Shown here one piece after another: positions 5,405 to 61,225 of a DNA stretch of 64,000 nucleotides. Both the position numbers and the translations under genes were made by a program. This DNA is from Salminus brasiliensis. Taxonomy: Eukaryota; Chordata; Actinopteri; Characiformes; Bryconidae. Location of the stretch: contig NC_132893.1 of the NCBI RefSeq assembly GCF_030463535.1, positions 33,620,191-33,684,190 of the forward strand. Direction: 5' to 3'. The notes below the pieces were generated by a model that saw only the letters and a program-made list of their open reading frames with translations, did not search any database and had not been told where the DNA came from. Position 1 is the first letter of the stretch, and every line of letters starts with the position of its first letter.

Positions 5405-5534
5405 CTACCTGGAGTTATGTGGAAGGAGTTTCTGGAATAAGCGAGCCACGGCCACGTCCACCCTCATGACCAGAGCGACTCCCACCAGCACGAACACACT
5501 GCTCACGATGAAGCCGCTAGCCTCGAACATTAGC
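5405..5534 (-). CDS. pigo: pigo coding exon 12 and stop (residues 1036-1078)
   Basis: Encodes the last membrane segment, [21 protein letters not shown], a near match to human. It stops at TAG (5405-5407). The acceptor is GTGTGCGCACACAG, part of a short GT-rich palindrome. Confidence 0.95.
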
Positions 5535-6014
5535 CTGTGTGCGCACACAAACACACAGAGGGATAATGGGTCACATATCATGAGTAAATTTTCAATCAAG
5601 CTGTGGTGTAAAATGGCGGATGCTACTGCACTATGGAGCTTTGGTGGTGGAGCTGCAGGTGGAGAACCTCTCTCCAGAACTGCTGCTGTGTAACGCTGCA
5701 GAACCCATAGAGTCATACTAGTGTAAAATACTGTAGTATTACTCTATCGCCTCAGCCCACATGCTGCTCTACCTTCAGATCAAGCTTCTGGAGCTCTCAG
5801 CTTGCCCAGAAATGCATGTGTACAGCTAGGTGTCCATGAGGGGGCGCTCAAAGGCTGATTTGTATTTATGACAGTGGTGTAAAAATTAATTATGCTCCCA
5901 ACTGTAGGGGGAGCCCAAGAGCTAAAGTCCCAATTCTTGCATACTGCTGCTTTACTATTTTTACCCAACCTCAATAACAGCCAATCAAAATTTTTGACGT
6001 TATTGATGTGGGGG

Positions 6015-6075
<61 letters not shown>

Positions 6076-6183
6076 CTGCCTTTCACTTACTTGGGTGCAA
6101 ACACTTTCCACACCATGAGGTGTCTCCTGAGAATCGCTGCAGCACACACTGAGGCCAACACCTGTATATATACAAAAGTAATG

Positions 6184-6249
<66 letters not shown>

Positions 6250-6332
6250 GACCTCCTGCCCCCCAGGCAAAAATACACACAAACAAACAGACTCCCCATT
6301 ACAAACAGGGGTGTGTTTGTGTGTGTTTGTGT

Positions 6333-6368
<36 letters not shown>

Positions 6369-9300
6369 CTGTGCTCCGCTGATGAACAGGTAGCGCAGCG
6401 CCAGCTGCAGCAGTGCTGAACTGAACTGCTGAGGGTTTTCTCGCAGCCTCATCTCCATGGCAACGTCATCTCCATCCTCCCCTGCGCCCGAGCGGCCGGT
6501 TCGAGTCCCACGGACCTCACGCACCAGTGGCCAGAACAGCAACAACGGACACCCAACTAGTCACAGACACCGACAGACAGACAGACAGACAGACAGACAG
6601 CAAGTTAAGATCAGCATCTCTATTATAACTTTTATTAGTTTATATAAAAATCTCTTATATATTCTACCTCTGACCTCGGATGCACTCGATCACTGCAAGG
6701 CTAAAGTCGCTAACAAACCTGCTGATGTAGTTTAAACACTTCAAAGCAAAACGTCCACTAGAGGGCAGTTCAGAGTCCAGCGTTTCTTACAGCAATAGAC
6801 ATGGCGATGGTGGAGGAAGTCGTGATAATGGCAGCTCAAAACAATGCCAAAAAGTCTGTATGGTAGTGTTCGTGTGTTTCGCTTCAGCTATTGGCTAGAG
6901 ATGCACTGATCCGACTTTTTCTGTTCCGATACGATACATAAACTTTGTGTATCGGCTGATACCAGATACCATTGTTGAATTAATAAACCAAATACCTCAC
7001 TATGTGGGAGAGACTAAAGGCCTCAGGATTGACAAACATTATTTTACTAACTTTATAAAACAAACTAGGACAAATAAATAAATGGAAAATGAATATATTG
7101 CAGTTTATTTGTCGCTAAAATAAATAATGGTGCTGGACCTTGACACAGTGTCGTCTGGGCTCAGGACTTTTATCTTGAAATTTTTTGTTTTTTTTTTAAT
7201 AATATTTGTTACAATTTTCTTCCCAATTTGAACCGTCAATTACAAAACCTGCTCGTACCCTCCCCACGCGATGCCCCCCGACACTAGTGAGGACGGACTA
7301 ACCCCTGCTACCAATGCAACATGACCGGGCAACTCAGCTTTGACACACCAGCCCACAGTCGCCAGAGAGGCAGCAAAGCGATGTGGGGAGAGAGCGCCAT
7401 CTATCCACCCACCCTACTCACTCTGGGCCTCGGCTGCCGATGGCTAGCAGCATGATCGGGATTCGAACCAGTGGTCCTCTGATCATAGTAACAGCGCCTT
7501 AGTCCACTGGACCACTCGGGCCTGTATTCTCAAATTTAAAGTCTGTGAGACCAAAAAGGAGCTAGCAGCTCCTCCCTTCTCGGTTCTCCTTATACGCCAT
7601 TACCACCATTACCGCCTCCCCCTCGCCCTCAGCTGTCCTCCATTATAGATGCAAGTCTCCAAAGCTGAGGCTTTCAAAACGGCGGGGCGACGAGTCCTAG
7701 TATCAAATCAGTGCATCTCTACTTTTGGCTACACTGCCACCACGATTTCCAATGGTCCTCCTCCATCCCATCTGTATCCGTAAGCTTCACACAAATACGA
7801 CTGAATACCTTTGGGACGTGGTAGGCAGGTTAACATCCAACATCCTGACCTCACTAACGCTTTCATCATTGCCATCAAATCCTCAGAGCAATGCTCCTCT
7901 AAAATCTAGTAGATAGCCTTCTTCCCTGGACAGTAGAGAGAGAGAGAGACAACAACTCCAACAAAAGCAGGATCAACTCTTTTTAATACACCTTGATTTT
8001 CACGAGAAACAACGAATAAGCGTGAAAGTGTCCAAATACTTTTGTCAACATAGTAACTATAAAGAGGGGGGGGCTTTTGAAGCGGTCAGATGAGCGGGTC
8101 AGTTAATCATGACTCTGATCACTGCTTCGTAATCTTGGTCAAACTTCAAACAATGTGTTCACAGAGGTGTTTGACCCTCGACTCTACGTTACATCCTGAC
8201 TTCAAAGCCCAGAAGTTATTAACCTTCATCCCCCAATAATGAGCCACTGAATATAATAAACAGACGCTACTAAAGAGTTATTAATGATCTATTAAAGAGC
8301 ACCCAGCAATGCCAGCTCTCATTTGACAGCACAGACTTTCTATCCGTGAGTGTGCAAAAGTATCCAGACACCCCTTCTAATTGTAAGTGGTGCATCCATC
8401 AGATGCCCTGGAGCAGCATATGATCAGCTAGAGGTGGCCAGCACTGAGCTGTAGAGCAGTGGAGCTGCATTCCCTGGAGAGATGGAGCTCCAATCAGTAA
8501 ATCTGAGAAGAACTGTGAAAGAGTGCCAGAAGTAATAATCTGCAAACCCCCTTTTAAGGTTGAATGCAATCAATTCCTCCTCACAGCAATGTTCCAACAT
8601 CCCAGATCCAGAAGTAAACACTATTCAACTGTCCAACTCTAGGATGATGCATCTAGGATGAGTTGGAGTGGCAGAACTAACCATCAGACATCAGTAAATG
8701 ACCTCACTGATGCTCTAATGGGGCTGAAGCAATCAAATCCTCTTCACAGCAATGTTCCAACATCTAATGTAAAGCCTTTTCCAAAATATCAGAGGCTGTC
8801 ACTGCAGCAAAGGTGGACAAACCTCTTATAAGCACTCTTGCCAGACTTCAGAACAAAAAAGGTGTGAGTTGGAGATCCAGAACCAACCATCCAACATCAG
8901 AAACCAGCCATCGGTGACCTCATTAATGGCCTAGTGGGGCTGAATGCAATCAAGTTCTCCTCACAGCAAGTTTCCAACATCTAGTGAAAAGGCTGTTACT
9001 GCAGCAGAGGTGGACATGCTTCCTATTAATACCCTTGATTTCAGTAGAAACAGCTGCTTGGTATCTGCTTCTGCATTCTCTGGAGGGATGGAGCTCCATT
9101 AATTCACTAGTAGGAGTTGGAGCTCCAGAACCAACCGTCCAACATCAGAACCCTTGAAGCTCCAGGCTTACAGAAGGCACCGTTTTTAGTTATGCTAAAC
9201 CTTATAGCAACCAATGATTGTTAGTTATATAATTAATTATATGAGACCATTAAGGAACAATTGGAGGTTCTGTGCTTTAGGGAACCTTCAAGGAACCTCA

Positions 9301-20347: not shown

Positions 20348-21111
20348 TCTGTAAGAGAGGGAAAATCAGAGAGCAGGTGAACCTGAGTATAGACAGACGG
20401 TCTGGAGACACCTTATTGAACACGTCATCCAAAATCAAGGGGATTAATTAATTTTTTAAGAGTTTGACACCCTTTACTCCTGGGTAAGCTTTAGATTAAA
20501 TAGTGGAACACTGCTGTGAGGAGGATTTGATTGCATTCAGGCCAACGAGAGCATCGTTATGGTCAGATCCTGATGTTGGAGGGTTAGCTCTGCCATTGCA
20601 GCTCATCCCAGATCCTCAAGGTACTGGAGGAGACGCCCGCTCCACAGACTCCTCATACCTCTCTAGCAGACAGACCTTCTGCTCCTATGTCCAGTTCTAT
20701 GGGTAATGCTTCCCTATGGAGATCCACCAATATTTGCAACAATACAAGGTCAAGCTGTTAACAAAGACATTCAGAGTGGTTTGGTGTGAAATCAGACATC
20801 CCAAGCCTTTAACACCTCTAGAAGTTCCCTCATAGAAAGTCCTTCCACCTAATGTTTATGGTTAAACACTGTCAGACACCTGAGGCATGCTTTTACCAGA
20901 GTTTTAGATCCAGTCACAGCTGGTTTAAGTAAAATTTGGAAGAACAGGTTATAATTACCCTGTAATTATACCCCTGAATTAGGGTCAGAAACCAATGGAT
21001 GAACCAATGGTTATGAACACACTGCCTGATAGGCTATGGACCTAGGCCTAGACCTATACACCTATCCAGAGAGCGTACGCAATGGCTGTATTTGTATTGC
21101 AGTCATGGTAG

Positions 21112-22163: not shown

Positions 22164-22195
<32 letters not shown>

Positions 22196-24660
22196 GTCTC
22201 ACTCTCACACACTCTCTCTCACTGTCTCACTCTCTCTCTCACTGTCTCACTCTCACACTCTCACTCTGTCTCTCTCACACTCTCACTCTGTCTCACTCTG
22301 TCTCACTCTGTCTCACTCTCACACACACTCTCACTGTCTCTGTCTCACTCTCACTCTCTCTCACACACACTCTCTCTCACTCTCTCACACACACTCTCTC
22401 TCACTCTCACACACACTCTCTCTCACTGTCTCACTCTCACTGTCTCACTCTCACTCTCACTGTCTCACTCTCACACTGTCTCTCACACACACTCTCTCTC
22501 ACTGTGTCTCTCTCTCTCTCTCTGTCTCACTCTCACTCTGTCTCACACACACTCTCTCACTGTCTCTCTCACACACTAACTGTCTCTCACACACTCACTG
22601 TCTCTCACACACTCACTGTCTCTCTCTCACACACTAACTGTCTCTCTCTCACACTCTCTCACTGTCTCTCTCACACACTAACTGTCTCTCACACACACTC
22701 TCACTGTCTCTCTCTCACACACTAACTGTCTCTCTCTCACACTCACTGTGTCTCTCTCACACACACTCTCACTGTCTCTCTCTCACACACTCTCACTGTC
22801 TCTCTCACACACTAACTGTCTCTCTCACACACTCTCACTGTCTCTCTCTCACACACTCACTGTCTCTCTCACACTCTCACTGTGTCTCTCTCACACTCTC
22901 TCACTGTGTCTCTCTCACACTCTCTCACTGTGTCTCTCTCACACACTCTCACTGTGTCTCTCTCACACACTCACTGTGTCTCTCTCACACACTCACTGTG
23001 TCTCTCTCACACACTCACTGTGTCTCTCTCACACTCTCACTGTGTCTCTCTCTCACACTCTCACTGTGTCTCTCACACACTCTCTCACTGTGTCTCTCTC
23101 ACACACTCTCACTGTGTCTCTCTCTCACACTCTCACTGTGTCTCTCACACACTCTCTCACTGTGTCTCTCTCACACACTCTCACTGTGTCTCTCTCACAC
23201 ACTCACTGTGTCTCTCTCACACACACTCTCACTGTCTCTCTCTCACACACTCTCACTGTGTCTCTCTCACACACTCACTGTGTCTCTCTCACACACTCAC
23301 TGTGTCTCTCACACACTCTCTCACTGTGTCTCTCTCACACACTCTCACTGTGTCTCTCTCACACACTCACTGTGTCTCTCTCACACACTCACTGTGTCTC
23401 TCTCACACACTCACTGTGTCTCTCTCTCACACTCTCACTGTGTCTCTCACACACTCTCTCACTGTGTCTCTCTCACACACACTCACTGTGTCTCTCTCAC
23501 ACACTCACTGTGTCTCTCTCACACACTCTCACTGTCTCTCTCACACACTCTCACTGTCTCTCTCACACACTCTCACTGTCTCTCTCACACACACTCTCAC
23601 TGTCTCTCTCTCACACACTCTCACTGTCTCTCTCACACACACTCTCACTGTCTCTCTCTCACACACTCTCACTGTCTCTCTCACACACTAACTGTCTCTC
23701 TCACACACTCTCACTGTCTCTCTCACACACACTCTCACTGTCTCTCTCTCACACACTCTCACTGTCTCTCTCTCACACACTCTCACTGTCTCTCTCTCAC
23801 ACACTAACTGTCTCTCTCACACACTCTCACTGTGTCTCTCTCTCACACACTAACTGTCTCTCTCACACACACTCTCACTGTCACTCTCTCACACACTAAC
23901 TGTCTCTCTCTCACACTCTCACTGTGTCTCTCTCTCACACACTAACTGTCTCTCTCTCACACTCTCACTGTGTCTCTCTCTCACACACTAACTGTCTCTC
24001 TCTCACACTCTCACTGTGTCTCTCTCTCACACACTAACTGTCTCTCTCTCACACTCTCACTGTGTCTCTCTCTCACACACTAACTGTCTCTCTCTCACAC
24101 TCTCACTGTGTCTCTCTCTCACACACTAACTGTCTCTCTCTCACACTCTCACTGTGTCTCTCTCTCACACACTAACTGTCTCTCTCACACACTCTCTCTC
24201 TGTCTCTCTCTCACACACTCTCACTCTGTCTCTCTCTCACACACTAACTGTCTCTCTCTCACACTCTCACTGTCTCTCTCTCACACACTAACTGTCTCTC
24301 TCACACACTCTCTCACTGTCTCTCACACACTCTCTCACTGTGTCTCTCTCTCACACTCTCACTCTGTCTCTCTCTCACACACTAACTGTCTCTCTCTCAC
24401 ACACTAACTGTCTCTCTCTCACACTCTCACTGTGTCTCTCTCACACACTAACTGTCTCTCTCACACACTCTCTCACTGTGTCTCTCTCTCACACTCTCAC
24501 TGTCTCTCTCTCACACACTAACTGTCTCTCTCACACACTCTCTCACTGTCTCTCTCTCACACACTAACTGTCTCTCTCTCACACTCTCACTGTGTCTCTC
24601 TCTCACACTCTCACTGTCTCTCTCTCACACACACTCTCACTGTCTCTCTCTCTCTCTCTC
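22160..24660. repeat. 2.5-kb CT/CA tandem array in pigo first intron
   Basis: Units of about 20-26 bp mixing (CT)n, (CA)n and CACTGTGTCTC or CACACTAACTG. A higher-order unit of about 46 bp repeats several times at 23915-24170. The plus strand is almost all pyrimidine plus A, with G only in TGT. The pigo transcript would be GA/GU-rich. It is open in several frames because of composition only. Confidence 0.95.
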
Positions 24661-24671
24661 TCTGTACTGAC

Positions 24672-24709
24672 CTTGCTCAGCTCTGTTCGTCCTCTCTCTC
24701 TCTCTCTCT

Positions 24710-24758
<49 letters not shown>

Positions 24759-28703: not shown

Positions 28704-31700
28704 GGGTAAGGTAAGCTGACCTGTGTGACCATACTGGAGATGTCTCCTGTGTTGGAGGGGAGGATGATGGTATTCGACTCCTTGGCCAGGTTGGAGAAGG
28801 CCAAGACGTACTGCTCCGCCACGCTGAGGGACGCCGCAGCATTTCCATTCTGTTCAAAAACACAGACGGCACCATTTCTACTTCTGTCTACTTCTGACAT
28901 TTAAAAACAAAGAGGACTCGAAAACTCAAGCAGAGTCTAAAACACACCTGCAGGGTCAGAGCAGCGGACAGCAGTCTAATGGCCTTCGCCTTCGCTTCTG
29001 CTTTGGCCAGCACAGCATTTGCTTCACCTGTAAAACAAACACAACAACAAATCCTTCTAGTGGCCATAAAAACTCTATAACTCCTCCCTCTGTGTGTGAC
29101 ACTACGGTTCATCTGTGCAATACTCAAATTATACTGTTCATATGTGCAATAATAATAATAATAATAGTACTGTAATTTAATGTGTGTGCAATAACTCAAG
29201 TGCAATCATTTCCCATATTTTTGTATTATATTTATATTATTATGATATAATTATTTTATCTCAGTATAATATATCTCAGTATTACCACTATGCCACTTTA
29301 CTATATTCTTATTTCTTATTTATATATATGTACATATTTCATTGTTTTTCTATTTTTTTCTGTATTTGTTTAAAGTTTATTTTAGTGTTTATTTATAGTG
29401 TTTTTGTAGTGTGTTTATTTAAAGTGTTTATTTTATGTTGTTTTTTATAGTGTTTATTTATAGTTTATTTTAGTGTGTTTATAGTATTTATTTATAGTGT
29501 TTTTTGTAGTGTGTTTATATAAAGTGTTTATTTTATGTTGTTTTTTATAGTGTTTAATTATAGTGTATTTATAGTGTTTATTTATAGTTTATTTTAGTGT
29601 GTTTATTTTCTAGTGTTTATTTATAGGGTGTTTATTTTATAGTGTGATTATTTTATAGTGTGATTATTTTATAGTGTGCTTGTTATAGTGTGCTTATTTT
29701 ATAGAGTGTTTATCTATAGATAGTTTGTCTATAGAGTGTTTTTTGTAGTGTGTTTATTTTATAGAGTGTTTATTCTTACACAAACGGTTGCAACTGTAAC
29801 AACTGCAATTCCCCTCCCGGGATCAATAAAGTATTTCTGATTCTGAAACCAAACATTGAACACTGCGCCTCAATTCAACTGCATACACAGAAGGTAGACA
29901 CTACTGCTCATCCACCCTGCTTTACAATAGCAGAGACGCTCAGCGCTGCCTCTGCCATCACACCCATCCCTGGAGCAGGAGTCTCCACTGCCACCCACGG
30001 ACGTTAAGGATGTGCTATACCTGCAGCTTTGTTGATCTGCTCTTCTTTCTCTGCCTCAGAAGCCAGAATCTGAGCCTGCTTGCGTCCCTCTGCCACGTTT
30101 ATGGCCGCCTCCCTCGTTCCCTCAGATTCCAGAACCGTGGCTCTCTTCTTCCGCTCGGCTTCCACCTGTGCAGGAGTTCCACACCAAATCATGACTGACC
30201 AGACCATTCCTGGACTTTTAAAGCACCAAATGACCAGACGTACTGAAAATGTTCTTAGAACTGGGTTTATAAACCCAAATAAACAAAGTCAGTGAGAATG
30301 TCTATCTGTAATGAACTCTATATAACATTAGAATAAACCAAAATAAATAGCAGACACTCTCACTGACCACTGCCTATGTTTATTTGGGTTTATTCCAATG
30401 TCATAGAGCTTTACAGGTAGACACTCTCACTGACCACTGCCTATGTTTATTTGGGTTTATTCCAATGTCATAGAGCTTTACAGGTAGACACTCTCACTGA
30501 CCACTGCCTATGTTTATTTGGGTTTATTCCAATGTCATAGAGCTTTACAGGTAGACACTCTCACTGACCACTGCCTATGTTTATTTGGGTTTATTCCAAT
30601 GTCATAGAGCTTTACAGGTAGACACTCTCACTGACCACTGCCTATGTTTATTTGGGTTTATTCCAATGTCATAGAGCTTTACAGGTAGACACTCTCACTG
30701 ACCACTGCCTATGTTTATTTGGGTTTATTCCAATGTCATAGAGCTTTACAGGTAGACACTCTCACTGACCACTGCCTGGTGGTTGGTGTGGCGCAACAGA
30801 TAACACCACTACCTGCCACGGAGCTACCACACCATGTGGGTGACTGGGGTTCGATTCCCGGTCTGGGTGACTATGCTGTGCTACACCAATAAGAGTCCTT
30901 GGGCATGTTTTCTAACATTACATTGGCCCACCTCTGTAATACGAGTCACCTTGTAAGTCGCTCTGGATAAGGGCGTCAGCTAAATGCCATAAATGTAAAT
31001 GTAATGTAAATGTTTATTTGGGTTTATTCCAATGTCATAGAGCTTTACAGGTAGACACTCTCACTGACCATTGGCTTTACATTTATATTTTAATATTATA
31101 GAGTTTTACAGCCCGTCTACGTTGCTTTCTTCAACATTAAGGTAAAAAGTTCTCCTGACAGTGAGAACCTTGTTATCAACAGGTGTGATTTAATGAGCTC
31201 ACCTGCATCTGCATGGACTCTTTAACACGCGGGGGGACGTGAATGTCCTTAATCTCGTATCGGAGGCAGCGGATCCCCCACTCATCCGACGCCTGGTTGA
31301 TGGAGTGTACGATGTTTGAATTGAGGGACTCTCTCTCCTGTCAGAAAAGGGTTTGACCGTTAATTCCAACCACATTATTTCATCAACTACAGCATGTTAT
31401 TTGTTACTACAGCTATACAGCATAGGGAAACAAGTCAGAAAGTCACATAAATAAAATAATAAAACCGAAAATAATGAACTCCCTCACCTCAATAAAACAG
31501 GAAAGGAGGAAAAACAAAAAACACAGCGCATCCAACAAAAACTCACAGATAGCACTGTTTCTACACTCCGATCTACTTTACTATGTATAGCACAAAGTCT
31601 CTGACAGCTGAGTTAACCCTTTCAACCCTAAAGGCCTGTTTGTGGGCCTATAGTCTGAAAGGGTTAACTCAGCTGCCAGAGACGTTTGTGCATATTAGCT

Positions 31701-34700
31701 TTAAAGCAGCTACTGAAAATAATTAGTATTAAAAATAGTTACTGAATATTCAAGATGAAATTATAAGGCTACTTCTCAATGGACTATATGAATAAGTAAA
31801 ATTAATAAACAGAAAATCAACCAATCCATTTCTACAACGCTCTGCAGAACAGCCACTAGAGGGCCTGCAGAATGAGGTTTGGGGAATACTCCCACTATTT
31901 ATTTATTTTTTTTATCTCAATTTATCTCAAATTTCTCAAAAAAGGGACAGAAAAAAAGTCCCTCTAGCAACTGAAAGAGTGGGGTTAGGAAAGAAATTAG
32001 AAAATAATTATTAATATTTATCTATTAATATTCACCAAGGTTTCGATACATTATTAAATATGATAAATACAGAAATAAATACGCTGTGCTCCTGATATAC
32101 TTGCAGTACAAATCTCAATTTGCTGTTGTTATTGTAAGGAATTAGCTTCCTTTAACATGACAGCAATCAGAATACAGTGTGAAGCCATTACAGAAACAAT
32201 CGGAAAGGAGGAGAGCGAGTCCGATACCCTGAAGACTTTGTCCAGAGTGAGCTTTCCCAATTCCGATCGCATTGTAGTCTGAGCCAGCTGAGTCACAGCA
32301 TACTCTGGATCCTCAACTCCATAACTGGCCTGGAAAAGAGGAAGCGAACAGGATTACACCAGCCCAACACAAGAGGGGCTCCGAATAAAGTAGCGTCCGA
32401 AATCACTCACCTTAAAGGGGTCGAGTATCCGGAGGTATAAAACCCCGTCTATCTGCAGCGTCACGTTATCTGAAACGGAGCACACACACCGCTTCACAGT
32501 CTGCAGGCAAACCAAGCGCCCGGATTTCTGGGAAGTTGCGATATTTACTCACCAAGAGATACAGCCGACTGCTCTGGAACATCTATCACTATCTCCTTCA
32601 GGCTCTGCACGTAGCGGACTCTGTCCAATATGGGGATTAGGAAGTTCAGCCCCTGCAGAAATGAACGTACAGCGAAATGCTTTAGGTGATTAAATAGCAA
32701 TAATACTTCATTTCATTTAGTAAGACAGTAATTATAATATATTCATCTATTAATATTCACCATGGCTTTGGTATAATATTAATTAATATTAATATGATAC
32801 ATACAAAATAAATAAGCTGTGCTTGTGATATACTTGCAGTATATCAGAACACAACACACTGTATTAACCAGGGCTGGGCGATATGACTATCATACACTCA
32901 TATCTCGAACTGCTTGATGGAGAAATTGTGATATGATATGAAATCAGTATGATGTTAAAGATTCAGTATTTATTTTTAAAAATCAAAAACACAGCATGTT
33001 TAACATTTAAACAGTAAATAATATGTGGGATTTGAATGTGCAATCCTCTGGCCATAGTGTGTGGAAGTGTGACAAATAATATGAATTTTAATCTGGTTGT
33101 AAAATTCAGAATCGGTATGGATTGTAAAAATGAATATATATCAAAATAAATTACTAAATAAATAATTAATTAATTTAAATCAATCCGACAAATAAATAAA
33201 TAAAAAAAATTGTGTGAACTGGGGTGATGTACCGGCTCCAGGATCCGGTGGAAGCGTCCCATCCTCTCCACCACCCACGCCTCCTGCTGCGGCACGAACA
33301 GAACGACCGTATTCATGGGGAGGCTGGAGGCCCAACGCTGCTGAGCCCGCGTCCCCCACAGGACCGGGGCTGTCTGTCGTGAGTGCTGAAACAGACACAC
33401 ACAGAGAGACACACACACACACAGAGAGACACACACACAGAGAGACACACACACAGAGAGACACACACACAGAGACACACACACAGAGACACACACACAG
33501 AGACACACACACAGAGACACACACACAGAGACACACACACACAGAGACACACACAGAAAAACAGAGCCAGAGACAGAGACACACACACACAGACTTTAGA
33601 AACAGAACTGGCCGATGCAGAAGGACATCAAAGTAGTTATCAGAAGTTATCAAATATTCACATATGTAAAACACTTGACGGACGTCAGGACTGTAGGTGA
33701 GCATGAGCTGGAGCTCACACTGAGGAACCGGGTTCTTCCTCTCGGTTCCTTAATCAGTAAAACAGCCCACAGTCCCGACATTCATGACATTCTGCTCATA
33801 TTTCTTTCTGCTGAACCACTGTTAGGCCTCTCAGGCTGTTTGTACTGCAGGGTTTACTGACTGGCTTTAATATATACTGCTATTGGTGGTCTGTAGTCAC
33901 CTAGCCACTAACCTGCTGCTGCCTGAGACCCGAGTCTCATTTATAAGGAATAGTTATAAGGGCAAAGTAAGACACGTCTGGATCTGTCTGGGTAAATTAA
34001 CCTGAACGTCACACTACGTAAAAGATCTTCAAAAAGGTTCACTCACAATTCATCATTTCACATACACACAAAAACAGTGATTAATATTAGACGTTTTATT
34101 AGATGGGAAAATCCAGGCAGATTACTAAAGCAGATTATAGAGAGCTATAGTACAGTTTCAGCTCTTTAATTGAGTTAGATTGGGGTACAGTACCATACTT
34201 TCACTATAGTACAGTTTCAGCTCTTTAATTGAGTTAGATTGGGGTACAGTACCATACTTTTACTATAGTACAGTTTCAGCTCTTTAATTGAGTTAGATTG
34301 GGACACAGTACCATACTTTCACTATAGTACAGTTTCAGCTCTTTAATTGAGTTAGATTGGGACACAGTACCATACTTTTACTATAGTACAGTTTCAGCTC
34401 TTTTAATTGAGTTAGATTGGGATACAGTACCATACTTTCACTATAGTACAGTTTCAGCTCTTTTAATTGAGTTAGATTGGGATACAGTACCATACTTTCA
34501 CTATAGTACAGTTTCTGCTCTTTAATTGAGTTAGATTGGGGTACAGTACCATACTTTCACTATAGTACAGTTTCAGCTCTTTAATTGAGTTAGATTGGGA
34601 TACAGTACCATACTTTCACTATAGTACAGTTTCAGCTCTTTAATTGACGCTCTTATCCAGAGCGACTTACAAGGTTACTGGTATTACAGAGTTGGGCCAA

Positions 34701-35935: not shown

Positions 35936-35977
35936 CCACAGCAGGTTATACATGCAGATATTAATCCAAATAAATTT

Positions 35978-37457
35978 GAGTTAGACTGAGATACAGTACC
36001 ATACTTTTACTATAGTACAGTTTCAGCTCTTTAATTGAGTTAGATTGAGTTAGATACAGTACCATACTTTCACTATAGTACAGTTTCAGCTCTTTAATTG
36101 AGTTAGATTGAGTTAGATACAGTACCATACTTTCACTATAGTACAGTTTCAGCTCTTTAATTGAGTTAGATTGGGGTACAGTACCATACTTTCACTATAG
36201 TACAGTTTCAGCTCTTTAATTGAGTTAGATTGGGATACAGTACCATACTTTCACTATAGTACAGTTTCAGCTCTTTAATTGAGTTAGATTGGGATACAGT
36301 ACCATACTTTCACTATAGTACAGTTTCTGCTCTTTTAATTGAGTTAGATTGGGATACAGTACCATACTTTCACTATAGTACAGTTTCAGCTCTTTAATTG
36401 AGTTAGATTTGGATACAGTACCATACTTTCACTATAGTACAGTTTCAGCTCTGTAATTGAGTTAGATTGGGATACAGTACCATACTTTCACTATAGTACA
36501 GTTTCTGCTCTTTAATTGAGTTAGATTGGGATACAGTACCATACTTTCACTATAGTACAGTTTCAGCTCTTTAATTGAGTTAGATTAGGATGCAGTACCA
36601 TACTTTCACTATAGTACAGTTTCAGCTCTTTAATTGAGTTAGATTAGGATGCAGTACCATACTTTTACTATAGTACAGTTTCAGCTCTTTAATTGAGTTA
36701 GATTGGGATACAGTACCATACTTTCACTATAGTACAGTTTCAGCTCTGTAATTGAGTTAGATTGGGATACAGTACCATACTTTCACTATAGTACAGTTTC
36801 TGCTCTTTAATTGAGTTAGATTGGGATACAGTACCATACTTTCACTATAGTACAGTTTCAGCTCTTTAATTGAGTTAGATTGGGATACAGTACCATACTT
36901 TCACTATAGTACAGTTTCAGCTCTTTAATTGAGTTAGATTGGGATACAGTACCATACTTTCACTATAGTACAGTTTCTGCTCTTTAATTGAGTTAGATTG
37001 GGATACAGTACCATACTTTCACTATAGTACAGTTTCAGCTCTTTAATTGAGTTAGATTGAGATACAGTACCATACTTTCACTATAGTACAGTTTCAGCTC
37101 TTTAATTGAGTTAGATTGAGATACAGTACCATAATTTCACTATAGTACAGTTTCTGCTCTTTAATTGAGTTAGATTGAGATACAGTACCATACTTTCACT
37201 ATAGTACAGTTTCAGCTCTTTAATTGAGTTAGATTGGGATACAGTACCATACTTTCACTATAGTACAGTTTCATCTCTTTAATTGAGTTAGATTGGGATA
37301 CAGTACCATACTTTCACTATAGTACAGTTTCAGCTCTTTAATTGAGTTAGATTGGGATACAGTACCATACTTTCACTATAGTACAGTTTCAGCTCTTTAA
37401 TTGAGTTAGATTGGGATACAGTACCATACTTTTACTATAGTACAGTTTCAGCTCTTT
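35978..37457 (+). repeat. 59-bp minisatellite, array 2 (about 25 copies)
   Basis: Same unit and orientation as 34147-34647, now upstream of stoml2. Variation is mostly single bases plus short insertions of TTAGATTGAG. Confidence 0.97.
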
Positions 37458-37789: not shown

Positions 37790-39520
37790 CAGTACTATAC
37801 CTGTTTCAGTACTATAGAGAACCTCTTATTATATAGGACCTTTCCTCAGTACAACATGGAACCATTTAAATACTGTAAATAACCCTTTTCAAAGGACCCT
37901 TTTCCAGAATTATATAGAACCATATAGAACTATATAGACCCCCTATATATATTCTGTACTGCATATAACTTTTTGTATAATACAAAGCTCTTTTTGGTAC
38001 TATATAGAACCCTTTCAATACTATATGAAACAAATTTTGAGGACTATATAGGGCCCTTTTGCAGTATTATATAGAAACCTATAAGTGCTTATTGGAATCA
38101 TTGTCAGTACTATATATCACTTGCTTTCATCACTGTACAGGACCCTTCTTAGTATTGTATAGGTTCTTTTTTGAACACTGCATAAAACCATTTTCAGCCC
38201 TATTTGGAACCTCTTTTCCAGATGATTTTTATTACTATATAGAACCTCATGTCCCCTATTATTTAATTTATTATATAATTTTACTATACAGTACTATTTG
38301 AGGACCCTATAGATCCCTTTCAAGTGTGACATAGCACCAGTATTATATTTGACACTTTTAATAACTATATAAAAATACTGTTCAGTACCATACAGAACTT
38401 GCTTTTCAGTACTATATGGAACTCTTTTCAGTACTATATAAATCCCCTTTCAGAACTGCATGTGACCTTTTTGGTATAATACAAAGCTCTTTTTGGTACT
38501 ATATAGGACCCTTTTAATACTACATCGAGCTAATTTTGAGTACTGTACAGAGGCCCCTTAGTACTATAAAGGACCCTTTTGAGAACAATATAGAACCCAT
38601 ATTAACCCAGTATTATATAGAAATCTATAGGTGCTTCATGGAATCATTGTCAGAACTATCATACGCAGTACTTTGAGTACTGCATTAAACCATTTAAGCC
38701 CTATATAGAACCCCTTTTCAGGACCATTTTCATTACTATTTAGAATCTCGTTTTCACTATTATATTATTTATTATATCATTTTGAGTACCATATAGAACC
38801 CTTTCAAGTGTGATATAGTACCATTTGGCACTTTTAATAACTATATAGAAATACTGTTCCGTACTATACATCACTTGCTTTCACGACTGTATAAGATCCT
38901 TCCTAGTACTGTATAGGATGTTTTTGGAGTACTATATAAAACCATTTTAAGGACTATATGGAACTGCTTGGACCATTTCCATTCACCCTTTTCAGTACTA
39001 TATAACCCTTTTTAGTGTTATATAAAACTCTTTTTGATATTATATAAAACCATTTTCAGTACAATGTGGAACTTTTTTCAGTACTATATAGACCCCCTTT
39101 CAGAACTGCATGTGACCTTTTTGCATATAATACCAAGCTCTTTTTGGTACTATATACAACCCTTTTAATACTATATGGAGCTAATTTTGAGTACTGTATA
39201 GAGCCCCCTTTTAGTACTTAAAGGGACCCTTTTGCTTTTATATAATTTATTATATCATTTTCAGTACTATACAGAACCAATTTGAGTGCCATATAGGACC
39301 CTTGTGCAGTATTATATAGGAACGTATAGGTGCTTAACGGAATCTAGTACTATATGTCACTTGCTTTCACTACTGCATAGGACCCTTCTTAGTACTGTAT
39401 TTACTGTTAACTGCATAAAACTATTTTCAGGACTATATGGGACCATTTTCATTCACCCTTTTTAGTGTTATATAAAACCCCATTCAGTACTATATGGAAC
39501 TCTTTTTCTGGACCCTTTCC
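37790..39520 (+). repeat. degenerate AGTACTATATAG repeat, block 1
   Basis: Dozens of irregularly spaced (about 20-35 bp) variants of CAGTACTATATAGAACC followed by CTTTT. Upstream of unc13b. A weak tail reaches 39790. Confidence 0.85.
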
Positions 39521-39529
39521 GCTGCTTTT

Positions 39530-39715
39530 TAGGGTATTGATGAAAGGGTTGTGGGTTCGAGACCCGGGCTCAGCAAGCTGCCACTATGGGGCTCTTGAGC
39601 AAGGCCCTTCACCCTCTCTGCTCCCCGGGTGCTGGAGTGCTGTGCTGTCCACTGCCCCTACTTCACTAGTGTGTGTGAGTGTGTGTGTGTGTGTGTGTTC
39701 ACTACCATAGATGGG
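39530..39715 (+). mobile_element. tRNA-derived SINE, second family
   Basis: Head GGTTGTGGGTTCGAGACCC, then GGGCTCTTGAGCAAGGCCC and CTCTGCTCCCCGGGTGCTGG, then GT repeats. This is a common fish SINE pattern. Inserted in the AGTACTATATAG block. Confidence 0.75.
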
Positions 39716-39954
39716 TGACATTTTGCTGTACATAGTACAGTGACAGATACGTTCAGGACTATATAGGACCTTGTTTCAGTACTACAGAAGAATGTGAAAT
39801 ATGATATATCATATATATATATACATGAATAATATCTGCATATCCTCCGTGCTGAGAGCAGCTTGTGTAAATGTGCAGTTTTACACTCATACGAGCCACA
39901 CACTGCACTTTCCACGGCTCCGTGCGTCACACCTGTTCCTTCAACCTGTTTATT

Positions 39955-40297
39955 CAAGCCACGGCCACACCTCTTCGCTCCTATTGGCTACTACCGCGCG
40001 GCGCCCCGCCTCCGTGCGGAATTAGCGCGCTGCGAGTGGACAGTCTCAACGTCATTAAAACCTGCAGGCTCCCGCCCCCTTCTACTCAGTCCACTGATTT
40101 TTTTTCTAAGCCTGATTCGTTTTATCATGGCGATGGGACATCCTAAGCTCCAGTAGGACAGTTTAGAGGAACTTTAGCTTTAGGAAAACCCAGAAAAGTC
40201 ACTTTTTGCGCTTTGCGATGTCGGCGGCCCGCACACGGCTCAGCTGAACCGCTCACAAGCCCCCAACCCTGGGATTTAGCAGAGGAAAAAGCCTGGC
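39955..40297 (+). promoter_or_regulatory. unc13b: unc13b promoter and 5' leader
   Basis: The most CpG-dense stretch of the window, with an inverted CCAAT box (ATTGGCT near 39981) and runs such as CGCGCGGCGCCCCG. The leader carries a YY1-like ATCATGGCGATGG and two short upstream frames, 40127-40156 and 40218-40247. The TSS was not placed exactly. Confidence 0.65.
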
Positions 40298-40319
40298 ATG
40301 TCTCTTCTCTGTGTAAGAG
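40298..40319 (+). CDS. unc13b: unc13b coding exon 1 (5' end of Munc13-2; gene continues off the right edge)
   Basis: UNC13 proteins prime synaptic vesicles by opening syntaxin. Their N-terminal C2A domain binds RIM. The exon encodes MSLLCVR plus one base, then donor AGAG|GTAAGA. Spliced to 58713-58742 it gives MSLLCVRVKKAKLQGPP, which matches the UNC13B start and fits B better than A (Arg at position 7, QG at 14-15). The neighbourhood of PIGO and STOML2, as on human 9p13.3, supports the call. Only 17 residues lie in the window, so family is secure and paralogue assignment rests partly on synteny. Confidence 0.88.
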
Positions 40320-42797
40320 GTAAGAGGGGGTTTCGATGTAACTTTATTATAATTTAAATTCGTTGAGCTTTTGTGTTTGTTGTCGTTCTCTAAACTAGAC
40401 GTTTTTCACTTTGTTTAGTTCGCGTTGGCCGTAAAAGTTGACGCTCCATTAAGTTAAGCGTCTTTTTTTTCGAATTTTTCCAGTCCACCTTAAATTCGCC
40501 GCATTTGCATTGAAGCGCTCGTCCGGCGCCCGCTGTAACTGCTGCGGCATTTAAGGTGGAACGGGCAATTCGAGGAGCGAGCTACTACAACTGCAACTGA
40601 CAACTCCCTGCAGCGAGGAACTTAATAAATACATTTTTAATAGCAGATGCACACCACATTTTCTTCATAATCAACGAATTAAAGGTCTGATTGTGTGTCT
40701 AAGCTCTTGTTGAGGAGGAATAAGGTGAACAACGTTATATAATTGGACCTGTCTGCCTTCCACAACATACCAGCTGTTTCTCCACTGGGACTGGGATGGA
40801 GCAGCCTGGGACTTCTGCATAGGATTTTAATTTGTTCATTGTGGAGAAATGTACAGCTTTATTTACAATAATGGTGAGGGATTCCAGGGGTCTTCATAAC
40901 TACAATGCAAATATAGCCAGTAAATACGGATTATTTACTATCCAAACCCACCAGTGGACCTACACGTGTCTCCTGAGTCTTGTATACAGTACTGATGGTG
41001 TTTAGATGTGGTAGGATAAGTGATCTTCAGCTACTGTTTTGTGCTAGAGAAACTCAAATACACTTTAAAATAGGTTTGAGGAGAAAACAGGCCTCAGGCA
41101 GTGTATTCATCATGTAGTGTGACCATTCAGTGGTCAAAAGCTTGAAAACTCTTCAGGCGTCGGTTTCCATTCACCACTATTGTGTTCACGTGTGACGTGG
41201 TATGTTTTTTTGGCCAGAACGAGGCGTTTCACACCAAACCCAGCTGAATAACTATGATAATTAGGGTAATTATTATGATAATTAAGCTGAAACTCTGTAA
41301 CATTGGAGGATTTCCCCTTTAGGCCTCATGGTCAGTGTCTTTTCAGTACTAAATAGGACCCCTTTTTAGTGCTATAGAACATCTTAGTACCATATAGAAT
41401 CCTTAGAGAGTATCCCGTAAGACCCAGTTTCAGTACTATATCGGACAATTCATTGATACTATATTTGAAAAATGTTCAATGCTATAGAGCATTCCTTTCT
41501 GAGTAGTGTATAGAATCCCCCGCAGGACCCCTTTCCAATAGGACCCATATTCTGTACTATATAGGGCACCGTTTCTGTACAATATAGAAACCCTTTTCAA
41601 TGGTGATCAGTTCTATATAGAATCATTTTAGAGTACATCGTAGGACCCCTATTCAGTACTATATATGGCCTGTTTTCAGTACTATATGGGGGCCAATTTC
41701 AGTGCTACATAGGACCCCTTTTCAGTGCTATAGAACATCTTTTCTGAGTACTATATAGAATCCTTAGAAAGTACCCCATATGACCCAGTTTTCAGTACTA
41801 TATAGGGCCTCTTTCCAGTACTATATCGGACAATTCATTGATACTATATTTAAACCATTTTCAGTGCTATAGAACATTCTTTTCTGAGTACTGTATAGAA
41901 TCCCAGTAGAACCTCTTTTTCTAGTATTATATAGGACCCATATTCTGTACTATATATGTCCCGTTCTCAGTACTATATAGGGCCCATTTTCAGTACTACA
42001 TAGGGCCCTTTTTATTGATATATAACAGATGTTCTGAGTACTATATTTAATTATGTTAGAGTACCTCATATGGCCCCTTTCCAGTACTATATAGGGCCCC
42101 TTTCCAGTACTATATAGGGCCTCTTTCCAGTACTATATCAGACCCTTCATTGATATTATATTTAAACAATTTATTAGTGCTATAGAACGTTCTTTTCTGA
42201 GTAGTGTATAGAATCCCAGTAGGACCCCTTTGCAGTATTATATAGGATCTATATTCTGTACTATATAGGGCGCCTTTTCTGTACAATGTAGGAACCCCCT
42301 TTCAATGGGGAGCTTCTTTTCAGAGTACTAGATAGAATCCTTTTAGAGTACATCGTAGGACCCCTTTTTAGTACTATACAGGGCCCATTTTCAGTACTAC
42401 ATAGGACCCCTCTTTAGTGCTATAGAACATATTTTCTGATTACTATATAGAATCCCTTTAGAGTACCTTGTAGGATCCCTTTCCAGTAATATATAGGGCC
42501 TCTTTCCAGTACTACATGGGACCCCTTTTAGTGCTATAGAACATCTTTTCTGAGTACTGTATAGAATCCCATTAGGACCCCTTTCCAGTATTATATAGGA
42601 CCCATATTCTCTACTATATAGGGCCACTTTTCTGTACGATATAGAAACCCTTTTCAATAGAGAGCATCTTTTTTGAATACTATATAGAATCCTTTTAGAG
42701 TACATTGTATGACCCCTTTTCAGTACTTATTCTGCAATGTATAGAAACCTTTTTCATTTCTATGACCAGTTTCAAGTGCTATAAATTATTGTAGTAC

Positions 42798-43254
42798 TAC
42801 AGTGCCTTGTGAAAGTATTCATCCTTGGCATTTTGCCTTTTTTGTTACATTACAGTATATAATAAATATATAAAAGGTTTTTTCTATCTGAATTGTATGT
42901 GATTCATCTGCACAAAATAGTTAGTTGGTGAAGTAAAATGAGAAAAATATTGTCTAATAAAAAAAAAACAACTGCAACAGTGGTATGTGCCACATATTTG
43001 CTATTCGCCCACATTTGCTATGAAGCCCCTAAGAAGTTCTGGTGCAACCAATTACCTTCAGAAGTCACATGCTTAGTGAAGTGAGGTCCACCTGTGTGCA
43101 ATCCAGGTGTCACATGATCTGTCAGTATATATACACACCTTTTCTGAAAGGCCCCAGAGGCTGCAACACCATTGAGCAAGAGGCACCACTAACCAAACAA
43201 CACCATGAAGACCAAGGAGCTCTCCAAACAAGTCCGGGACAAAGTTGAGCAGTA
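42798..43254 (+). mobile_element. Tc1-like transposon, 5' part only
   Basis: A TA dinucleotide followed by the Tc1-type terminus CAGTGCCTTGTGAAAGTATT. Then leader, then ATG at 43205 encoding MKTKELSKQVRDKVEQ, the conserved transposase N terminus. The homology then stops at CAGTAC and the surrounding repeat resumes. Everything downstream of the first 16 codons is gone, so the copy is inactive. Confidence 0.85.
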
Positions 43255-43273
43255 CAAAATAGAATTCTTTTAG
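43205..43273 (+). pseudogene. Tc1 transposase N-terminal remnant
   Basis: Sixteen codons match the Tc1-family start. The frame then runs into repeat DNA and stops at 43271-43273. The DNA-binding and DDE regions are absent. Confidence 0.8.
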
Positions 43274-43817
43274 TGTACATCATTTTCACTGATATATATG
43301 TCCTGTTTTCAGTACTATACAGTGCCCATTTTCAGTACTACATAGGGCCCTTTTTAGTGATGTATAACATTTTTCAGAGTACTATATTTAATTATGTTAG
43401 AGTACCTCATATGGCCCCTTTCCGGTACTATATAGGGCCCCATTCCAGTACTATATAGGGTCTCTTTCCAGGACTATATCAGACCCTTCATTGATATTAT
43501 ATTTAAACAATTTATTAGTGCTATAGAACGTTCTTTTCTGAGTAGTGTATAGAATCCCAGTAGGACCCCTTTTCAGTATTATATAGGACCTATATTCTGT
43601 CCTATATAGGGCACCTTTTCTGTACAATGTAGGAACCCCCTTTCAATGGAGAGCTTCTTTTCAGAGTACTAGATAGAATCCTTTTAGAGTACATCGTAGG
43701 ACCCCTTTTTAGTACTATATAGGGCCTGTTTTCAGTACTATTTGAGTGCTTTGAGTGTGTGTTTATTGTGTAGGTTGCGCCTATACACACTCCTAGAAAC
43801 GCAGTGCTTTAATCTAG

Positions 43818-59154: not shown

Positions 59155-60040
59155 CACTGACTTTGTGTATTTGAGTTGAGTCTAATGTTACGTAGTTATT
59201 TACAGGTAGACACACTCACTGACCACTGACTTTATTTAAAAGGGGGTTTAATGTAATGTTATGTAGAGTTAATTACAGGTAGACACTCTCACTGACCACT
59301 GACTATATAATATCAGAAAAACCCCCCTTCTAAATAAAGTCAGTGGTCAGTAAGAGCGTCTACTTGTAATTAACTCTATATAACATCAGAATAACCCCCC
59401 TTGTAAATAAAGAGTTAATTACAAGTAGATACGCTCACTGACCACTGACCTTACATTTATTTGGGTTAATTCTACAACGACACTTTGACGACACTAGTCA
59501 CTTTAAACACACTCTGCTGCTACCTTCTCCATTTACTTCTCTCTGTATTTTATTTTCATTTTTTACATATATTTTATATATTTATGTATATTTTATTTAT
59601 TTAAGTACTGCTTCTGGGTAAAACTGGGTCCTTGGGTACCACAATTTCGTTCCACCCCATGTACCACATGTGATGCGAATGACAATAAAGTCTCCTTGAA
59701 TCCTTGAATCCTTGAATCCTTGAATCCTAATGTTGTATAGTCTTACTGGTAGACACTCTCACTGACCACTGACTTTATTTAAAAGGGGGCTTATTCTAAT
59801 GTTATATAGAGGTAATTACAGGTAGACACTCTCACTGACCACTGACTTTATTTAAAAGGGGGTTTAATGTGATGTTATATAGAGTTAATTATAGGTAGAC
59901 ACTCTCACTGACCGCTGACTTTATGTTTATTTGGGTTTATTCTAATGTTATATACAGTTAATTACAGGTAGACACTCTCACTGATCACTGACTTTGTTTA
60001 TTCGGGTTTATGGTAATATTATATAGAATAAATTACAGAT
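59155..60040 (+). repeat. diverged minisatellite related to the 67-bp stoml2 array
   Basis: Repeats AGACACTCTCACTGACCACT with TTATTTGGGTTTATTCTAA. A segment near 59300-59410 is reversed, and a LINE tail (59510-59731) interrupts it. Confidence 0.8.
59510..59731 (+). mobile_element. LINE 3' end with TCCTTGAATC tandem tail
   Basis: AATTTCGTTCCACCCCATG and GAATGACAATAAAGTCTCC, followed by five copies of TTGAATCC. This is the short terminal repeat typical of CR1/Rex-type LINEs. No coding remains. Confidence 0.6.
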
Positions 60041-60837
60041 AGCTACAGTCAGTGAGTGAAGGTGAGCATGCATCTCCGCTCTGCAGTGCCGGTCGGTCTG
60101 ATTAATTGATTCTGCATTAAGTAATCTCATCAGGCTGTGTGTCCTTCCTTGGCCGGCTCTCTTGGCTCGCAGGGAATAAGATCAGTGTATGTTAAGCTCA
60201 AATCCCCACGCTCTCCTCCCCTACAAATCCTCTGCACTGTTTGCCCTCAAACCCTTCCCGTAAGCCCCGTCACTGTGGAGGAAGTGAGGGAATGCTGGGA
60301 ATGCCATAATGTGACCACACTGCTTTTGCTTGAACAGCCTCACTATAGACGCCACTGACAAAAGTTTGAGGACACTGTGGCCTTTTCTGTGCAGTCAGCT
60401 TAATGATTTTTTTTCAGGCTGTTGTTAAAAGCTCAGGGTTTGTTGTTATGTAATACTAGTACAACTTCTACCAGCTCCTCCTTCGTGGGCTGAGGCAGAC
60501 GAGACCGTGTAGAGATGTTGGCTTGATCTTGGCTCTGCCTGAGCACTTGTTCAAACACTGAGCAGATCAGCAGACTGCAGTATTGTCCCATTGCTTCCTT
60601 TATAGCCGAGGGTAAACAGGCCCGCCGGCCTTCCCTTCATTATTGACAGTTGGCTCTTTTGTTTCCTGAGATCCGGCGTGTTTGCTTAGTTCTGTAAACG
60701 ACACATCAGCTATTATGCCTTCCCGCCATTGTTCCCTCAATGCCACCTTTACCCTGGGACCAAAAGATGTGTCATCCATTTGATCTAGAGGGGAATAGTT
60801 TGATAGCTGTTACACAGCTGTTCTGTTTTAGAACATT

Positions 60838-61225
60838 AGACTACACCCAAATAAGCAAAGTCAGTGAGAGTGTCTACCTGTAATTTACTCTATAGAACAA
60901 TATCAGAATAAACCCAAATATACAAAGTCAGTGGTCAGTGAGAGTGTCTACCTTTAATTATCTCTATATAATATTAGAATAAACCCAAATAAACAAAGTC
61001 AGTGGTCAGTGAGAGTGTCTACCTGTAATTTAACTTTATATAACATTAGAATAAACCCAAATAAACATAAGGTTAGTGGTCAGTGAGAGTGTCTACCTGT
61101 AATTAACTCTATATAACATCAGAATAAACCCAAATAAACATAGTCAGTGGTCAGTGAGACTGTCTACCTGTAATTAACTCTATATAACATCAGAATAAAC
61201 CCAAATAAACAAAAAGCCAGTCGGT
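60838..61225 (-). repeat. same minisatellite in inverted orientation
   Basis: Reads AATAAACCCAAATAAACAAAG and CAGTGAGAGTGTCTACCTG, about five units, the reverse complement of 59155-60040. Confidence 0.85.

Follow-up and report, generated by a model that had tools for sequence, protein, structure and literature searches.

Intron 10 of a pigo-like gene of Salminus brasiliensis (6368..6162, minus strand, 207 nt, GT...AG) carries an AC tract beside its donor and a GT tract close to its acceptor, and the two are predicted to fold into a long helix which bridges the splice sites. All positions are counted within the window, i.e. the whole stretch of 64,000 nt of DNA that was analysed. With a probability of roughly 0.55, this bridging helix aids the pairing of the splice sites of intron 10 and is opposed by an exon-looping helix, in which the same GT tract would pair with a further AC tract (AC2) beyond exon 11. 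If the bridging helix acts, the gene would join a group of genes, known from fish, whose splice sites are recognised in part through RNA structure. If AC2 matters, the locus would offer a compact natural test of whether repeat length by itself sets intron bridging versus exon looping. The repeats had been noticed in a first-pass annotation; the observation itself was confirmed, and its interpretation was partly supported.

Gene model and layout of intron 10

Splice sites of the minus strand were selected visually and then joined, which resulted in a model of 12 coding exons, separated by 11 introns, and a single open frame of 1078 aa. The start codon lies in the exon beginning at 20348 and the stop codon ends at 5405. 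In the whole protein, PF01663, a phosphodiesterase domain, scored 56.2 bits against a cut-off of 23. The protein is presumably PIGO (GPI ethanolamine phosphate transferase 3) rather than the product of a sister gene, a name taken over from the first-pass annotation and from general knowledge. The Pfam profile PIGO_PIGG (PF19316, cut-off 27) scored 26.2 bits with the C-terminal piece, where residues 25-85 align with profile positions 355-415 (61 residues to 61 positions) across the joint of exons 10 and 11. With the whole protein it scored 23.5 bits (899-1056 against 288-414), 158 residues being set against 127 positions with net gaps. Searches of solved structures gave no match up to an E-value of 0.01 for the C-terminal piece, and up to 0.001 for the whole protein they gave ENPP7 only (1e-4) and no PIGO structure. 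The open frame alone is no proof that intron 10 is removed, because intron 10 is itself open and of 3n length. The equal-length PIGO_PIGG alignment over the exon 10/11 joint fits, as a profile comparison, with the removal of exactly intron 10.

In the gene model, exon 10 (6369..6556, minus strand as all features that follow, 188 nt) ends with GCACAG in phase 0, and intron 10 (6162..6368) has a length of 3n with no in-frame stop. The first AC tract (AC1), a perfect (AC)16 at 6335..6366, begins at intron position +3 and is continued by an interrupted AC/ACAA stretch (6311..6334), which lengthens the predicted helix. A spacer of 64 nt (6247..6310) forms the head of the predicted hairpin and is followed by the shared pairing arm, a perfect (GT)30 tract of 60 nt (6187..6246), and by an acceptor tail of 25 nt (6162..6186, ACTCATTACTTTTGTATATATACAG) which ends in CAG. 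A candidate branch point, CTCAT (6181..6185), was picked by eye from the branch point consensus; its A (6182) would then lie 20 nt before the final base of the intron, and a single base separates the motif from the GT tract. Exon 11 (6091..6161) is 71 nt long and is followed by intron 11 (5535..6090, 556 nt), where AC2, a perfect (AC)20.5 of 41 nt, is located at 6022..6062, 28 nt past the donor. Exon 12 (5405..5534) is the last coding exon. The anatomy reported in the first-pass annotation (GTAC start, (AC)16, interrupted AC, 64-nt spacer, (GT)30 and 25-nt tail) was exact on the minus strand. The judgement that intron 10 is a clean example of its kind was wrong, because AC2 as a competitor across exon 11 and the open frame of 3n length had both been missed.

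Splice signals and open frame of intron 10

The donor of intron 10 is CAG/GTACAC with the G at 6368, and its U1 duplex energy of -7.1 places it in the weaker half of the gene (other introns -4.5 to -12.2, weaker in 3 of 10). Among the GT sites between 6380 and 6090, two that resemble donors lie where the GT tract begins on its 5' side and AGG/GTGTGT is found, with U1 duplex energies of -7.5 and -7.3; a further one in the spacer, GAG/GTCAGG at 6252, is below the real donor with -6.0. Since the two edge sites match U1 slightly better than the real donor, hiding them could be useful.

At the acceptor, the pyrimidine fraction at positions -23..-4 is 0.65 with 11 T among 20 bases, and the longest pyrimidine run is 5. 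The pyrimidine tract is therefore poor in absolute terms, as had been claimed, but not in comparison with the 10 other introns of the gene, in which the fraction ranges from 0.55 to 0.90 and the longest run from 3 to 12 (6 longer, 1 equal, 3 shorter). As the tail lies inside this range, it gives no sequence cue for a substitute of U2AF2, and a poor pyrimidine tract was rejected as a sign of U2AF2 independence. In the neighbouring intron 9, a GTCT repeat on the sense strand (6572-6600) ends 15 nt before the 3' end and the longest pyrimidine run is 3, so that this 3' end apparently does not exceed the one of intron 10 in strength.

Intron 10 is the only one of the 11 introns which is open in frame (phase 0), and since it is stop-free and of 3n length, its retention would lengthen the protein by 69 residues without a frame shift. 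When the non-repeat part was shuffled with tracts and length kept fixed, 10.3% of 20,000 sequences were open as well, which makes chance a fair explanation; with the 3n length included, the chance would be about 3%. Stop-free retention is thus not claimed as a selected feature.

Predicted folding of intron 10

Intron 10 alone folds with a minimum free energy (MFE) of -117.9 kcal/mol, compared with a mean of -83.3 (sd 5.2) for dinucleotide shuffles (z -6.7), and 0 of 200 shuffles were as low. Tiles of 207 nt from other introns had a mean of -44.1 (sd 15.6, lowest -77.8), and none of these 194 tiles, taken from the 8 (of 10) other introns that measure 207 nt or more, all but introns 4 and 8, reached the value of intron 10. 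Among 1276 window tiles of both strands only one did, and this tile overlaps intron 10. The earlier proposal of an AC/GU helix of at least 30 bp bridging the splice sites is strongly predicted. The helix begins beside the first base of the donor, and in three transcripts without AC2 the GT tract is paired with AC1 at 0.82-0.88. The folding evidence covers one locus in one genome at the level of DNA sequence, and the program treats RNA only, free of bound proteins and of pUG quadruplexes.

In 10 folds with exon sequence, the mean unpaired probability of the donor was 0.13-0.22, and that of the acceptor AG and the base after it was 0.01-0.06 (0.61 for the intron alone). As the true donor and the AG are buried in the predicted folds, splicing could also be hindered.

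Predicted competition of AC2 across exon 11

Because AC2 lies beyond exon 11, the GT tract has two partners and can pair across the 71-nt exon. The layout for exon looping, with complementary tracts in the flanking introns (GT at 6246..6187 and AC2 at 6062..6022), is present. Duplex energies were -62.8 kcal/mol for AC1:GT and -82.5 kcal/mol for AC2:GT. With AC2 present and no span limit (4 folds), the GT tract was paired with AC1 at 0.48-0.49 and with AC2 at 0.51-0.52; span limits of 200, 250 and 300 gave 0.44-0.47 and 0.53-0.55, and a limit of 150 gave 0.53 and 0.12, respectively. In the lowest-energy fold through AC2, two helices stand side by side, each with about half of the GT tract.

In silico changes of tract length shifted the pairing almost wholly in either direction, so that tract length decides the balance in these predictions. 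GT tracts of 10, 15 and 20 units gave 20/0, 30/0 and 35/4 pairs with AC1/AC2, and tracts of 25, 30 and 40 units gave 26/24, 29/31 and 35/40. Setting AC1 to 25, 8 or 0 units resulted in 52/6, 17/39 and 0/41 pairs, and setting AC2 to 10, 30 or 0 units resulted in 35/18, 6/52 and 52/0. The suggestion that repeat length could alter the inclusion of exon 11 becomes more plausible with AC2, but according to these folds the sign of the effect is opposite for different tracts, and lengthening AC1 or AC2 leads to opposite predictions for the balance of bridging and looping. Skipping of exon 11 would shift the frame to ...GAQANVRG-stop with loss of the last 66 residues.

Relation to known repeat-containing introns

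The primary study of (AC)m-(GT)n introns in zebrafish and other fish is reportedly that of Lin et al. from 2016 (Genome Res 26:12). Intron 10 has the layout of this class, an AC repeat towards the donor end and a GT repeat towards the acceptor end of a single intron, and also its energy feature, a long predicted hairpin of -117.9 against a mean of -44.1 for 207-nt tiles. By layout and predicted energy it would accordingly fit into the known fish class. The published work to which the first-pass annotation referred does exist: passages of PMC9024468 describe zebrafish introns that carry AC on the donor side and GU on the acceptor side, have energies 50-100% lower than ordinary introns and are spliced without U2AF, and such fish introns also appear in passages of PMC9198270 and PMC12636285. 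As far as the published set is represented in these citing papers, its introns share the donor-side AC, the acceptor-side GT and one long low-energy hairpin, and intron 10 differs in that AC2 could compete across the next exon and that the intron is stop-free with a length of 3n.

Competing intronic RNA structures, e.g. those of human ATE1 and of Dscam1, resemble the locus, as excerpts of PMC11802352 describe them, in that rival partners of one pairing element decide which exon is used; here the elements are, in contrast, simple repeats which are expected to change length fast and which are known from one sequence. Complementary repeats flanking an exon were also looked for in the literature, and nothing on a triad with a shared arm was found, a weak result given the partial coverage. 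The triad of AC1, GT and AC2 may be the sole part that is new.

Proposed mechanism and alternative readings

During transcription, we infer, AC1 would pair with the GT tract in the cell to give a helix of some 30-50 bp, the length depending on the share of the GT tract taken by AC2. The bridging helix would tuck away the 64-nt spacer together with the donor-like sites and draw the donor near the branch point region, so that the correct two sites could pair more readily and less U2AF2 might be needed. About half of the GT tract may pair with AC2 instead, and exon 11 would then be enclosed in a loop of some 124 nt. As transcription yields AC1 first, then the GT tract and AC2 last, the bridging helix would probably win, with exon 11 normally included.

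The repeats might instead serve as protein-binding sites with no helix formed. TDP-43, CELF and hnRNP L are known repeat binders, with CFTR exon 9 and eNOS as cases, and TDP-43 or CELF bound to (UG)30, together with hnRNP L bound to the CA tracts, could tune exon 11. The positions would suit such binding, with (GT)30 located 25 nt from the acceptor and the CA tracts at positions +3 (intron 10) and +29 (intron 11). Moreover, long UG repeats are preferred by TDP-43, and exons repressed when TDP-43 rises carry short UG motifs, according to the available sections of PMC11163724; skipping of human SH3YL1 exon 9 is linked to an AC repeat in those of PMC13174678, which cites titles on CFTR and eNOS. 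UG paired with CA would, however, not stay single-stranded for these proteins, and pairing is the role published for such repeats in fish, as given in part of PMC12636285. Action by repeat-binding proteins is considered unlikely, though not negligible.

A neutral origin was weighed by random placement. The window contains 9 perfect AC/GT runs of at least 20 nt, three of them at the intron 10/11 site with alternating direction. Of 20,000 trials with the 9 runs placed at random, 4.6% contained an opposite pair within 130 nt and 0.035% an alternating triplet; the comparison is post hoc, and microsatellite clustering would raise both values. Common repeats could thus have come to lie opposite each other by chance with splicing indifferent to them, and the splice signals of intron 10 are inside the gene's own range. 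The much rarer triplet argues against this, and a helix of such stability would be hard for splicing to ignore. This reading, too, appears rather improbable.

A stronger form of the competition would be a length-tuned splicing switch, in which bridging by AC1 includes exon 11 and pairing with AC2 loops it out. The CFTR (TG)m(T)n repeat beside exon 9 is likewise a GT repeat that shortly precedes an acceptor, and its length could set exon inclusion; the GT tract here differs in being longer and in having two complementary CA partners. An exon in a helix loop is described as causing exon skipping in the consulted part of PMC11802352. If the switch were real, microsatellite length changes could tip the pairings, predicted to be balanced in this allele, either way, and the gene product would differ among individuals with repeat length. 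From the predicted folds, such a switch is regarded as doubtful, with low odds. Action of the GT tract through folding into pUG quadruplexes, for which there is space for two of 23-24 nt and enough guanosines (30, where 12, as in a minimum (GU)11.5, are required), is very improbable, as CA-rich complementary neighbours can block the pUG fold and two such tracts are present (requirement and blocking as stated in portions of PMC12636285).

Other repeats in the window

No known structured RNA was detected in the window at gathering thresholds and no tRNA by ARAGORN (bacterial code). A tandem repeat family of 67-73 bp with the core CACTCTCACTGACCACTG forms arrays at 30352-30777, 59743-60042 and 60860-61213; the third is reversed relative to the first two, and these could possibly be arms of a mobile element. 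One 59-bp unit occurs in two arrays, 34145-34647 (8.5 copies) and 35976-37457 (25 copies), with 96-97% matches. A CT/CA-rich repeat array of 2.6 kb (22166-24755) has two open frames, of 389 and 405 codons, probably due to composition alone. Finally, a diverged unit of 21-23 bp like TTTTCAGTACTATATAGGGCCC recurs in many short arrays within 38364-43741.
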